NCBI GenBank assembly: GCA_903904685.1
Contig: CAIVDS010000113.1
Coordinates: 1-48,360 of the forward strand
From: an uncultured Verrucomicrobiota bacterium
Lineage (GTDB): Bacteria; Verrucomicrobiota; Verrucomicrobiia; Opitutales; Opitutaceae
DNA: 48,360 bases
Direction: 5' to 3'
The translations under genes and the position numbers were made by a program. Under the pieces are notes generated by a model. It was not told where the DNA came from, searched no databases, and worked only from the letters and a program-made list of their open reading frames with translations. Below are positions 1,046 to 46,984 of this stretch, in pieces. The first letter of the stretch is position 1, and every line of letters starts with the position of its first letter.

Positions 1046-1528
1046 ACGCCAATTTTTCTTGGCAGCACGCTAAGAACTGAAGACGTAAGCCTAAGAACCA
1101 GTGACGGGACACTAGGGACTTATGGCGGGACGCTATGAACGAGTGACGGCGCGCTATGGACCAGTGTCGGAGGCTTATGAACGAGTGTCGGCATGCTAAA
1201 AGTTGGCCAAGTGGCGCTAAGTTTTCGTCAAGTCCCGCTAAGTCGACGCCAAGTGTTGCTATGTCATCGCCAAGTCACACTAAGTTTTCGCCAAGTGGTA
1301 GTAAGTTAACGCCAAGTCACGCTAAATTGACGCCAAGTTATGATAAGTTAACGCCAAGTAGCACTAAGTTAACGCCAAGTTGTGCTATGTCATCGCCAAG
1401 TGAGGCTAAGTTAACGCCAGGGAATGCTAAGTTTTCATCCCAAAACCCTGTGTTTTCGCCAAAATGGGGTAGGAAATCGTCATTTTTGACCGATTTTACT
1501 CAAAAAGGCCAAAAAAACCACCGAAAGG
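1046..1528. repeat. Array 1: degenerate tandem repeat with exact 21-bp period
   Basis: Eighteen consecutive 21-bp units can be laid end to end from 1067 to 1444 with no slip. Fainter units extend to about 1046 and 1528. Most units begin nnGCTAAG or nnGCTATG. The second half changes along the array: units from 1088 to 1192 end in a GTGACGG/GTGTCGG-like block, while units from 1193 to 1423 end in CGCCAAGT. Positions after the core often read TTAA, TCAT or TTTT. Because 21 bp is seven codons, frames stay open; one frame from an ATG at 1156 to 1533 would encode heptapeptides of the type KLTPSHA, but nothing else supports that as a gene. It is not a CRISPR array, since there is no constant repeat with long unique spacers. 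It shares period and core with array 2 at 44.9-45.9 kb. Function unknown. Confidence 0.9.
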
Positions 1529-33453: not shown

Positions 33454-34767
33454 ATGAATCCCAACGAACTTCCGCTTTCCCACGAGATTCTCACCGACCG
33501 CACGATTGCGATCAAGGTCGTGGGCATCGGCGGCGCCGGCTCGAACGCGGTGGACCGTCTCAAGATGGAGAATCTCGACCGCCTCCAGATGGCTGTCATC
33601 AACACCGACCATCAGGCGCTCTCCAACTCTCCGGTTCAGGACAAGGTGCTGATCGGTTCCTCGGTCACGCGCGGACTCGGTGCCGGTGGCGACCCCGATC
33701 TCGGTCGCGACGCCGCCGAGGCCGACCGTGAAAAGATCTCCGCCGTCGTGAAGAACTGCGACTTGGTGTTTCTCGTCGCCGGCATGGGCGGTGGCACGGG
33801 CAGCGGCGCGGCCCCCACCGTGGCGGAAATCGCCGCCGAGTCCGGCGCGCTGGTCATCGCTTTCGTCACGTTGCCCTTCAGTTTCGAGGGCGGCCGGCGT
33901 GTGAAGCAGGCGGAGGAAGGTTTGATCGCCCTTCGCAAAGTGTGCGACGCCGTCATCCCGCTGCCCAACGACATCCTTCTTCAAGAGGGAGCCGAGGGCG
34001 AGACCGCGCTCGATTCCTTCGCCCGGGCCGACGAGTGGATTGGCCGCGGCGTGAAATCCATCTGGTCGATGCTGTTCCGCACCGGACTCATCAACATCGA
34101 TTTCGCCACGCTGCGTCAGGCGTTCCACACCCGCAGCGGCAAAACCCTTTTCGGCCTCGGTTCCGGCTCCGGGGAAAACGCCGTGGCGGAAGCCATCGAG
34201 AGCATCAAGCTTTGCCCCCTGCTCGCCACTCCGGAGTTCGCCCGCAAGGCCGACCGCCTGCTCGTCAACATCGTGGGCGGCACCGATCTCACGCTCCCCA
34301 AGGTCAACGAAATGATGACCGCCGTCACCGAGCAGTTTGGCCGCGATTCCCATGTCATCATGGGCGCGGTGATCGACGAAGACATGCAGGGCAAGGTCGA
34401 ACTGGTCGTGCTTGGCACGAGCGATATGGGTGGTCGGAGCGGCGGTGTGCGCCGTCCGTCCGCGCTGGCCCGCGCCACCAAGCCGTTCGCCTCGGCGGCT
34501 GCCGGGCGTGAAAACGACCATCAGGCGGCGGCGCCTTCCTCCGTATTTCCGGCGTCGGTGCCGGGAGCGGCTGCTGCGACCGCGTCCGAGTTCTCCACGA
34601 AGTCCGCGCCCGACACGCTGACGAGCACGGCAGCGGACCAAAATGAATTCACCTTCGGCGAGATCGAACGCCGCGGGCATTTCGACAAGACCGACCGCAA
34701 TCTTTTCGAGGGTCAGGACCTCGATGTGCCAACCTACCTCCGCAAAGGCATCAAGTTGGCGCTGTGA
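33454..34767 (+). CDS. ftsZ: Cell division GTPase FtsZ, with altered T7 loop
   Basis: The 437-residue tubulin homologue has KVVGIGGAGSNAVDRL, the GTP signature GGGTGSGAAP (112-121) and FSFEGGRRVKQAEEGL. The T7 loop, which enters the neighbouring subunit to trigger GTP hydrolysis, reads LINIDFATLRQ; Asp216 is present, but the second Asp of NVDFADVR (E. coli Asp212) is Thr219. The globular domain ends near 325, then a ~85-residue Ala/Ser linker leads to the conserved C-terminal peptide DLDVPTYLRKGIKL, which binds FtsA. It is the last gene of the dcw cluster, 13 bp after ftsA. The substitution comes from clear sequence (ACG at 34108-34110); effect on GTPase activity is not known. Confidence 0.93.
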   Translation: MNPNELPLSHEILTDRTIAIKVVGIGGAGSNAVDRLKMENLDRLQMAVINTDHQALSNSPVQDKVLIGSSVTRGLGAGGDPDLGRDAAEADREKISAVVKNCDLVFLVAGMGGGTGSGAAPTVAEIAAESGALVIAFVTLPFSFEGGRRVKQAEEGLIALRKVCDAVIPLPNDILLQEGAEGETALDSFARADEWIGRGVKSIWSMLFRTGLINIDFATLRQAFHTRSGKTLFGLGSGSGENAVAEAIESIKLCPLLATPEFARKADRLLVNIVGGTDLTLPKVNEMMTAVTEQFGRDSHVIMGAVIDEDMQGKVELVVLGTSDMGGRSGGVRRPSALARATKPFASAAAGRENDHQAAAPSSVFPASVPGAAAATASEFSTKSAPDTLTSTAADQNEFTFGEIERRGHFDKTDRNLFEGQDLDVPTYLRKGIKLAL

Positions 34768-44574: not shown

Positions 44575-44750
44575 CCCCCGGTGTCAACGCGCCCTTGCTT
44601 TGGAGTCTCCGCCTCTGGGCGGGGACTCCGTGCGCCTGCCGTTCCCCTCGGATCGGCTGCCCTTGTCTCCCGCCGCCATTGCCGGAAAGGGCAGGGGGAT
44701 CGACCAACGTCCCTACGGGATTCTCCGACACGCGCACGGGCTTAATACCC

Positions 44751-44862
44751 TTTCGTGTTCAAAGGTCTCGAACGGTAGGGCGAGGCGTCCCCGCCGAGCC
44801 GCGGCTCACCGGGGCGGTTCGCCCTACCCGCACCACGCATTCTTTATGCCTTTGATCGCAAT
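44751..44862 (+). repeat. Palindromic ~112-bp repeat, copy 1
   Basis: The core 44776-44826 starts TAGGGCGAGGCG and ends TTCGCCCTA (TAGGGCGA inverted). Inside are CCCCGCC/GGGGCGG arms around the perfect palindrome GAGCCGCGGCTC. Flanks TTTCGTGTTCAAAGG (left) and ATGCCTTTGATCGCAA (right) also match copy 2. The second copy lies exactly 1,877 bp to the right with no gaps in the alignment. A REP or MITE-type mobile palindrome is the likely class. Confidence 0.85.
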
Positions 44863-44916
44863 AGGGCAAAACCAACACCGCACGGGGATTCCCCGCCACG
44901 CGCGCGAGATATGACG

Positions 44917-45254
44917 GAGCCCTCTTTGGTTTCACCGGAGCCTAAAAAGACTGCGCCAGAACTGAACATGGCTTCATCGGAGGTGGGAAAGACTCCGCCA
45001 GAGGCGAATACGGCTTCATCGAAACAGAAAAGGGCTTCATCGGAGCCATCTCGGGCTGCATCGGAGGAAGAAAAACCTCCCCCAACGCTGGTCCGGGCTT
45101 CATCGACAGGGAAAAACCCTTCACCAGAGCTGATCCGGCCTCCACCACGGCTGATCTGGGCTTCCCTAACGCTGATCTGAGCTTCATCGGAGGTAATCTG
45201 GCAATCACCAACACTGATCTGGCAATCACCAGAGGTGATCTGGGATGTGTTTCG
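44917..45254 (+). repeat. Array 2a: 21-bp degenerate tandem repeat
   Basis: Sixteen units follow each other from 44917; fifteen are exactly 21 bp and the last is 23 bp (45232-45254). Typical units read GAGCTGATCTGG then CTTCATCG, or ACGCTGATCTGG then CAATCACCA, so the start (a GCTG near positions 3-6) corresponds to the GCTA core of array 1. An ATG at 44911 opens a frame to 45180 that would encode a Ser/Pro/Glu-rich heptapeptide protein (for example MASSEVGKTPPEANTASS), but that may be a by-product of the seven-codon period. Function unknown. Confidence 0.88.
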
Positions 45255-45926
45255 ACGCTCTTTTTTAACGGATAACCGTTAAAAAGTAACGTATTCCACA
45301 TAAAACTGATCGGATGTCTTCTGGAAACTTTCAGATCTTGGCTAAACCTGAACGGATTCATTCTAAAATTCACTGGATTACCGCTAACTTTGAACGGATT
45401 CATGCTAAAAAGTAAGCGATTCCCGCTAACCAGTAACCGACATACGCCAATAACGAAGCGACCTTTCTCAAAGTTGAACCAAGACCATTTGATAAGAAAC
45501 CCACACAATCTGAAATCGAAGGCATCCATTCCGAAAAGTAACCTGCACAGTCCGAAATCGAAGAACCCCTTCTTAATTATAAAGGAATACCCGCTAATAA
45601 GTAACCGCTACAGGCCAAAAACGATGGAAAACATCTGACTTGGATAAGGTTGCGGCCTAAAAACACCCACTGCCGCAGAGTCGGAAGCCAATTTTATCAA
45701 TCCGGAGACCCATTTTACCCTGTCAGGAAACAAATCAACAGAGTCCCCCACCATGTCTGACCAAATTCCCTCCACCGGCACGGAGATTTCCTCCGCCAAC
45801 ACAGAGTCGCCCTCCACCACTACGGCAATTCCTTCCACCGGCGCAGAGTCGCCGTCCGCCACTACGGAGATTCCTTCCACCGGCGCACAATCTCCCACCA
45901 CCGGCACGGAGTCTCCCACCGCCGAC
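45255..45926 (+). repeat. Array 2b: 32 exact 21-bp units running across a start codon
   Basis: From 45255 to 45926 the sequence can be cut into 32 consecutive 21-bp units without a single-base slip. Left units resemble CCGCTAAnnn followed by GTAACCGATTC; middle units drift (GAAATCGAAG types), and the last eleven read ACAGAGTC or ACGGAG-ATT followed by CCCTCCACC. The ATG of the next gene (45753) lies inside a unit starting at 45738, which matches the coding unit at 45801 (ACAGAGTCGCC versus ACAGAGTCCCC). So non-coding repeat and heptapeptide-coding repeat are one array. Confidence 0.88.
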
Positions 45927-46622
45927 ACGCCGGCCGCGCCCGCCCGCGCCAAGACCCGGCGCACCCGCTCGCTCATCAATAAAACCTACGCCGGGCAGCT
46001 CGCCATCGCCGGGGATATCGCCGCCGCCGCCGTGAAACCCGAGTATGCCGAAGCCCTGGCGGCCAAAGGCATCGACGCCGCCTTCATCGCCACGCTCGAG
46101 GCGCAGATCGCCGAGGGCGGACAGTTCATCACCGACGCCGGCGACAAGATCGCCGAAAGGAAGTCCGCGACCAACGCCAAGAAGGCGGCCAAGGCCGTCC
46201 TCCTCGAACTCCTCGGCGTCATCAAGGCCCGCGCCAAGCTCAAATACCCGCGGCTCGGCGACCCGCAGCGCGCCCGCTATTGCATCGGCCAGAAACTCGC
46301 CCTCAGCCGCAACTTCCTCTCGGCCGGCGCGCAGGTGATCATCAACCACCTCGAAGCCGGAGACCTCCCCGATGTGACACCCGCCGAGGTGGCCGCGTTG
46401 AAGGCCGCCCTCGAGACCTACCGCACCTTGAATACCGCGCAGACGGACGACCAGTGCGGCGCCACCACCGCGCGCTTCCGCTGCGCGACCAAGGTGGCGG
46501 AGGTCACCGAACTGCGCCGCAAGCTGCAATACGCCGCCGACGCCGCCTGGCCCTCGACCCGCGCCACCAGCGCCGGCATCCGCGCCGAGTTCAAGCTCCC
46601 CAAAAACCGCGCCCTCAAGTGA
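45753..46622 (+). CDS. Unknown protein with heptapeptide N-terminus from the 21-bp array, 289 aa
   Basis: The N-terminal ~55 residues are eight Pro/Ser/Thr heptads (IPSTGTE, ISSANTE, SPSTTTA, IPSTGAE, SPSATTE, IPSTGAQ, SPTTGTE and a decayed copy), encoded by the end of array 2b. The rest starts with a basic patch (AKTRRTRSLINKTY) and is Ala-rich, helical and soluble: IAEGGQFITDAGDKIAERKS, KAVLLELLGVIKARAKLKY and VTELRRKLQYAADAAWP. There is no signal peptide, membrane segment or recognised domain. It is flanked by the two copies of the ~112-bp palindromic repeat. A structural or DNA-binding role is possible but unsupported. The GC-rich codon use of the body matches the host. Confidence 0.7.
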   Translation: MSDQIPSTGTEISSANTESPSTTTAIPSTGAESPSATTEIPSTGAQSPTTGTESPTADTPAAPARAKTRRTRSLINKTYAGQLAIAGDIAAAAVKPEYAEALAAKGIDAAFIATLEAQIAEGGQFITDAGDKIAERKSATNAKKAAKAVLLELLGVIKARAKLKYPRLGDPQRARYCIGQKLALSRNFLSAGAQVIINHLEAGDLPDVTPAEVAALKAALETYRTLNTAQTDDQCGATTARFRCATKVAEVTELRRKLQYAADAAWPSTRATSAGIRAEFKLPKNRALK

Positions 46623-46627
46623 GCCCC

Positions 46628-46739
46628 TTTCGTCGTCAAAGGTATCAAGGGGTAGGGCGAGGCGTCCCCGCCGAGCCGCGGCTCACCGGGACGGTTCGCC
46701 CTACCTCGATCCGCATATTCTTATGCCGGTGATCGCAAA
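46628..46739 (+). repeat. Palindromic ~112-bp repeat, copy 2
   Basis: Gapless match to 44751-44862 at a constant offset of 1,877 bp, with the core 46653-46703 differing at one position (GGGACGG here, GGGGCGG in copy 1). It begins six bases after the stop of the 289-residue gene and may also serve as its transcription terminator. From 46740 to 46984 there is no supported gene. Confidence 0.85.
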
Positions 46740-46984
46740 ATGGCATGAGTCCGACGTCGCGAAAGCGCATTGCGCCTTTACGCGGAGTGTTTCTCGCACA
46801 ACGCTCACCCGCAGGATGGTTCCCCTCCGCAACAGCCCGCCTCCTTTTTATTTCGAAAATTCTTTTCCGGCTAAAGCCATACTCGCGGTTGAGCTTTGGC
46901 CGGTTGTTTCTGCAACGACTTCCCCCTCCGATTCCCCTTCAAACTCTCTGCAATGAACGTATTCCGTCTCAATCACCCCGTATC

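Follow-up and report, generated by a model that had tools for sequence, protein, structure and literature searches.

In type III plasmid partition, the winged helix-turn-helix of TubR binds the centromere tubC, and a superhelical complex is formed (PMC9178275). The 21-bp repeat arrays described here are alike in that repeat sites adjoin the gene for a small winged-helix protein, which is ArsR-like in the present case. They differ from TubZRC in that no TubZ GTPase gene is found at the arrays and in that many copies occur per genome; moreover, many of the arrays precede an unrelated helical protein (family 1). The genome's one tubulin-family match falls at 33511-33984 of the window (the whole stretch of DNA that was analyzed, 48,360 nucleotides long) and at no array locus. 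Borg repeats, from elements of Methanoperedens, are tandem, occur both between genes and in reading frames and give disordered protein repeats (PMC9879509). Tandem repeats that are both intergenic and genic, with disordered protein repeats, are also seen here. The Borg units are perfect, of several lengths and of independent origins, whereas the present units are degenerate (within-segment mean identity between units 0.45-0.84), keep to 21 bp throughout (only 21 and its double among periods 12-42) and are tied to two families.

Plasmid iteron or operator arrays and the controller proteins of restriction-modification systems provide a further comparison, as the gene of a regulator is preceded by direct repeats in these systems. 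A similar order is present at one winged-helix copy (C100), in which the array is followed by a 102-aa winged-helix protein, a C5 methyltransferase and an HNH protein, although the units here are more numerous and more degenerate. By inspection, C100 is the only one with a restriction pair among the seven winged-helix loci with downstream frames listed. Type III toxin-antitoxin systems of the toxIN kind place a structured repeat RNA, with units of about 35 nt, before the toxin gene. The present arrays do not fit this candidate: the unit measures 21, the mean RNA fold z is near 0, the window has no Rfam match and two family-1 proteins scanned have no PADLOC match. With REP elements and integron cassettes, the likeness is one of sequence only, in that REP-like palindromes occur near several arrays and a cassette-like site near one of them (array A). 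Judged by analogy, TubR-tubC is the closest system in its parts and the Borg repeats are the closest in the theme of genic plus intergenic repeats. No published account of such arrays in this bacterial group was found in the open-access literature searched.

Across the arrays, the spacing is retained and the sequence changes. This pattern suggests that a protein reads the DNA at a constant interval, and it speaks less for a single gene assembled from repeats. Our preferred reading, held tentatively and at a little less than an even chance, is that the arrays are a portable operator-like module beside accessory genes, presumably bound by protein. If true, bacteria keep many parallel self-specific arrays, conserved in spacing and not in sequence, which accompany two unknown protein families and, in some cases, restriction-modification genes. 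They would offer one testable case of a DNA site and its reader changing together and another of non-coding repeats spilling into a reading frame and lengthening a protein.

The window locus and its protein

The first-pass annotation had described 32 units of 21 bp at 45255-45926, in perfect register across a start codon and with zero slips, which continue as heptapeptides at the N-terminus of a 289-aa protein. The periodicity itself is borne out by autocorrelation. Over this interval, lag-21 identity is 0.478 (0.498 at lag 42 and 0.475 at lag 63), compared to a mean of 0.274 (sd 0.045) for lags 5-129, and the highest lag-21 identity among 5,000 permutations was 0.324. The repeat is longer than had been thought, spanning about 44913-45941 (onset somewhere in 44913-44934) with about 48 units of three types (Table 1). 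The absence of slips holds for the first and the coding segments, in which a cyclic-profile parse detects no phase shift, but one occurs near the end of the middle segment. Likewise, register is preserved only in part. Segment 1 and the coding segment are most alike when offset so as to keep the register (rank 1 of 21, z 2.6), while the middle segment has no in-register likeness to either (ranks 21 and 14 of 21). Local lag identity is at background level in 45606-45668 (0.27 at 45606) and a finer scan places a break in periodicity from about 134 to 78 bp 5' of the ATG, so that the continuity of the array is not directly demonstrable there. The unit just before the ATG (45732-45752) resembles the coding units and matches four of them at 12-14 of 21 positions. 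The N-terminal heptads are also present as described. A period of 21 is seen throughout the first 189 bases of the gene (z 5.0 versus other in-frame lags), and the second codon positions are the least variable in the coding units (0.24 versus 0.53 and 0.39). The larger part of array A, the second array of the window, shares its unit type with the array at another family-1 copy (winA2/C94, z 7.8).

Table 1. Features of the window related to the 21-bp arrays (positions are those of the window).
Feature	Position	Strand	Basis
REP-like element of about 120 bp with a 55-bp imperfect palindrome, 5' of the array	44741..44870	+	nhmmer
Array segment 1, consensus unit ACCAGAGCTGATCAGGGCTTC, non-coding	44913..45248	+	lag-21/42 identity, unit listing
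Array segment 2, consensus unit GGATACATGCTAAAAAGGAAC, non-coding, 40% G+C	45249..45647	+	periodicity, unit listing, cyclic-profile parse
Weakly periodic stretch up to the start codon; final unit (45732-45752) resembles coding units	45648..45752	+	
Array segment 3, coding, giving the heptapeptides in the disordered N-terminus	45753..45941	+	
Family-1 gene encoding 289 aa, of which an all-helical domain begins at residue ~74	45753..46622	+	
Second REP-like copy, same orientation, directly 3' of the gene	46624..46747	+	nhmmer
Array A, second 21-bp array of the window, no family gene adjoining	1072..1449	+	periodicity, unit comparison

The 289-aa protein is a member of family 1, an unnamed helical family with ten long copies in the genome. 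The other nine share 38-46% identity with it, and none of the ten has an internal stop. The genome search listed 15 matches, five of which were set aside: the short fragments C4, C42 and C49, and two weak matches (C8 and C35:33.8k) that are short, of low identity and interrupted by an internal stop. Among the long copies, C14 and C43 are cut by contig ends. In the AF2 model of the 289-aa protein, pLDDT is below 50 over most of residues 1-68, and the disordered N-terminus is followed by a helical domain that includes two helices of 56 residues. As the gene belongs to a conserved family, it was not born from the repeat of the window, contrary to the earlier suggestion of a gene start created from repeat DNA. 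The gene is fast-evolving, with dN/dS pairs of 0.123/0.197, 0.288/0.367, 0.175/0.190 and 0.062/0.090 for four close family-1 pairs. Across the bacterial family it is patchily distributed, with 8 of 252 genomes carrying it, the present one included. Several copies terminate in a stem and then T.

Searches did not attach a name to family 1. Four of the ten copies were scanned against Pfam, NCBIfam and PHROGs with no match over cut-off (the best NCBIfam line has E 0.011, far below the family cut-off), and two against PADLOC with no match. Neither the sequence search against solved structures (best: HslU, 0.021) nor the fold search of PDB and BFVD gave a match at 1e-3, and no relatives in viral contigs were confirmed. 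In VIA, chemoreceptors and other helical bundles were matched at Z up to 10.2, but such values are typical of long helices and these matches were discarded.

Arrays upstream of two gene families

The genome contains about two dozen arrays (~25), each with about 10-48 direct units of 21 bp. Most of them stand before two unrelated, unnamed gene families and are oriented towards the gene. A 21-bp array is found upstream of all family-1 copies with upstream DNA (9/9; C43 begins at a contig end and is outside this count), upstream of the intact homologues in G010, G011 and G154, the last of which is another genus, and upstream of two truncated genes, those of G003 and C49. Homologues lacking the repeat had been named as what would speak against the first observation; every intact homologue with upstream DNA carries one, and the five that do not are C-terminal gene fragments (C4, C42, G008, G033 and G250). 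A period survey of 436 kb (periods 12-42, z over 9, at least 250 bp), comprising the window and sampled stretches of which some were selected for carrying family genes, gave arrays only at 21 and its double. At a survey threshold of z 7.5, the loci of G154 (6.9-7.2) and G006 (7.4) score below it and pass at 6, a level that no other period reaches at either locus. A 400-kb sample of G010 away from its family-1 gene has no arrays, and at threshold 6 no segment of at least 210 bp. A further 220 kb of the present genome yielded two arrays, C100 and C70, and the C70 contig starts inside a leader similar to that of C9. Four orphan arrays (winA, C35:33k, C85 and C21:74k) occur without either family gene, which we counted against an operator role.

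Entry of the array into coding DNA is not a general feature, as a reading of the window locus alone would have it. In 7 of the 9 family-1 copies, 208-534 bp separate the end of the array from the ATG, and no 21-bp period is seen at the coding start (z -1.3 to 0.6); only at the window locus and in C26 (z 3.0) does it continue into the gene. These two loci, together with the restrained second codon positions, favor the idea of a single expandable element selected as both leader and protein linker, or of a gene start made from repeats. Yet, the coding extension is also absent in G010 and G011 and the gene family exists without it, which makes this idea highly improbable. The effect of the repeat at the window locus is a longer disordered N-terminal linker of about 60 residues, compared to about 20 in most paralogues.

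The second family consists of ArsR-like winged-helix proteins of about 104 aa that are unrelated to family 1. All of its genes in the present genome have an array directly upstream (8/8; one gene and one array among these loci are cut by contig ends). At 1e-8, matches elsewhere are confined to G006 and G161, both with arrays, so that the family occurs in 3 of 252 genomes including the present one. By eye, the array upstream of the G161 homologue looks like a 42-bp higher-order repeat with two 21-bp halves. Conversely, G003, G010, G011 and G154 carry arrays and have no winged-helix match at 1e-8; hence, the winged-helix protein cannot be the general reader. The winged-helix model (pLDDT 84.8) has an ArsR-like fold. 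It is similar to CadC (1u2w; Foldseek E 6.2e-4, TM 0.56; VIA Z 10.9, rmsd 6.6, 85 aligned) and CzrA (1r1u; Z 10.3, rmsd 3.8, 87 aligned). Profile matches stay under the Pfam cut-offs, with 25.3 bits to MarR_2 for the C100 protein (cut-off 27) and 20.1 bits to HTH_24 for the C114:23k protein (cut-off 21.9), and the PHROG search gave a single weak line (0.0015).

From array to ATG, the winged-helix leader is conserved and nearly constant in length. The motif TTGTCA-17-GAAAAT is located at the 3' end of the array in 5 of 9 leaders and variants with the same spacing in 3 of 9; the C39 leader has nothing like it. The array probably ends at a promoter in most winged-helix copies, to judge from this motif. 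At the window locus, no sigma-70-like promoter was found, another point counted against the operator reading. The leader also bears on the possibility that the array acts as a repeated transcript (a sponge, an antitoxin or an untranslated leader). The arrays are indeed upstream and in the orientation of the gene, and RNA folding exceeds that of column-shuffled controls by more than 2 sd in 4 of 31 segments on the gene strand versus 1 of 31 on the other. However, the mean fold z is -0.41 on the gene strand and -0.09 on the other, no Rfam match exists in the window, and the promoter-like site of the winged-helix genes is 3' of the array, which would thus not be transcribed from there. An RNA role is very unlikely on this balance.

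Register, unit turnover and candidate readers

Compared at the sequence level, units differ between loci while the 21-bp register mostly holds. Whole units are gained and lost. The arrays of C19 and C35 (91% identity) are separated by in-array gaps of 42, 21 and 21 bp, with two 1-bp gaps at the array edges, and those of C24 and C49 (98% identity) by one 21-bp gap. The prediction that the repeat changes in quanta of 21 bp has thus held up at least in these two most similar pairs, which are the only clean ones of six pairs aligned. In the arrays of C9 and C14 (77%), a single 21-bp gap is accompanied by a 1-bp slip and by two 5-bp gaps that compensate each other. The more diverged pairs C94/C14 and C94/C9 have gaps of many lengths, which, like the C9/C14 slip, weigh against an operator; the C94 pairs, with 23-25 gaps of mixed length, were set aside. 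At the orthologous locus of C56 and G006, which adjoins a formyltransferase gene, the flanking DNA has 85.5% identity over 1,092 bp, and the leader together with the gene has 75% over 424 bp. Both arrays are 21-periodic there, and BLASTN finds no alignment between them.

In 19 array segments (6,636 bp), six phase shifts were counted next to 2,165 mismatches to consensus, the segments having been chosen by eye from periodic DNA with a bias toward few slips. In a slip-detection test, 54 of 88 planted slips were recovered with 10 extra calls. Spacers at the same loci show 2, 5 and 5 indels per 49, 82 and 80 substitutions. Register slips would accordingly be about tenfold below the spacer indel expectation, a figure that is only an estimate because the mismatches are not independent and the segments were picked as periodic. 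These counts bear on a rival explanation, a neutral satellite, in which an ancestral 21-bp array was duplicated with the genes, unequal exchange homogenizes the units and the period has no function. Such an origin agrees with the clustering of unit types by descent (C19/C35/C21:74k; C9/C14/C70), with the turnover of whole units, with the persistence of orphan arrays without genes and with the other gap lengths in diverged pairs. It sits less well with the estimated slip deficit, with the retention of the period in two genera and in front of two families that are unrelated, and with the absence of arrays at the five C-terminal fragments. We consider it unlikely, albeit a serious contender.

The composition of the arrays is distinct, with a mean G+C content of 47% versus 61% in the genome sample. 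A shared reading frame as their origin was rejected, as segments including C24, C94 and C114:23k have stops in all three forward frames. Unit G+C in 19 representative segments displays a 7-bp harmonic (z +3.2, p 0.002 among 30 tests) and no 3-bp excess. Helical A-tract phasing was dismissed for lack of a 10.5-bp compositional signal, and dyads in the units showed nothing general, with the G003 segment alone at a dyad z of 3.8. Both results count against the operator-like module.

Under the operator-like module that we favor, the 21-bp unit, equal to two helical turns, would place all putative sites on one side of the helix. Each unit would be a putative protein-binding site, and the array would serve the adjoining gene as a cooperative operator or as a scaffold of nucleoprotein, located next to a promoter-like site where leaders are comparable. 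The candidate reader is the protein of the neighboring gene, either winged-helix or family-1, each at its own arrays, and the outcome may be autogenous control with locus-specific recognition. At the window locus and in C26, the array would have grown over the start codon, with a longer linker as the by-product. For the winged-helix proteins, columns 51-59 are the top nine-column run of amino-acid change among eight sequences (pN 0.37 and pS 0.24, versus pN 0.14 and pS 0.34 in the remainder; 94 of 5,000 column shuffles are as high). They correspond to the turn and N-terminal half of the recognition helix H53-66, and such changeable columns fit diversifying DNA recognition. A strict matching of winged-helix protein to unit was rejected: the arrays of C31 and C99 are nearly identical (z 10.9), with QSRGMASHH versus RAPSMASQH as recognition segments. 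Because of this mismatch and the four array genomes without the winged-helix protein, we limit the claim to arrays that are probably read by the neighboring protein. For family 1, no DNA-binding fold stood out and the pI ranges from 6.3 to 9.9 across full-length rows, hence not uniformly basic; both were entered against the operator reading. In a wider and rather doubtful generalization, the arrays may represent a class of bacterial chromosomal cis-elements fixed in period and free in sequence, which co-evolve with fast-changing readers of at least two unrelated folds with copy-specific recognition, comparable to eukaryotic satellite-and-reader pairs.

Unit sharing, REP-like elements and cargo

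Unit types are shared across the two families. Out of 465 array-segment pairs, z exceeds 3.5 in 23 same-strand and six opposite-strand pairs, the latter being a guide to the chance level. For instance, C114:63k (family 1) and C39 (winged helix) have a common unit type (z 9.4), and C24 (family 1) resembles the winged-helix arrays C114:23k, C31 and C99 (z 6.5, 4.9 and 4.9). C19 (family 1) similarly shares its unit type with C21:74k (z 9.3), an array at restriction-modification genes. The REP-like element is present at 11 places in the genome (both copies of the window, C21, C35, C9, C22, C85 and C105), 8 of which have a 21-bp array no more than 1.5 kb away. At the window locus and in C21, array and cargo stand between two copies that share one orientation. 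In C21 (C21:71007-74140), an Eco29kI-like endonuclease (Pfam RE_Eco29kI, 3.1e-55) and a C5 methyltransferase (DNA_methylase, 3.7e-58), i.e., the gene pair of an Eco29kI-like restriction-modification system, lie between two REP-like copies with the C19-type array beside them.

This arrangement raises the possibility of a platform for recombination or mobility, in which arrays and REP-like repeats form the exchangeable 5' arm of cassettes with swapped cargo. One array type is indeed found with different cargo (family 1 at C19 and the restriction-modification pair at C21:74k; family 1 at C24 and a winged helix at C114:23k), and the flanking repeats and the patchy distribution of both families point the same way. 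Nonetheless, REP-like copies are near only about 7 of the ~25 arrays, and exchange alone need not produce the polarity and near-constant leader length of the winged-helix loci, so that we hold this platform to be quite unlikely. Beside array A, at about 2390-2452 of the window, there is what we take to be an attC-like site (GCTCAAACGTTGGGC), 3' of a 187-aa frame and 5' of a 102-aa frame; integron cassettes are possible there. Next to an orphan array at about 34.5k of C35, a 147-aa frame on the minus strand, without a Pfam match at 0.001, presumably resembles the N-terminal part of an integron integrase. Finally, C22:6438-6845 holds an array fragment at the contig end, which breaks off 5' of a frame that we take to resemble the start of an IS1595-type transposase.
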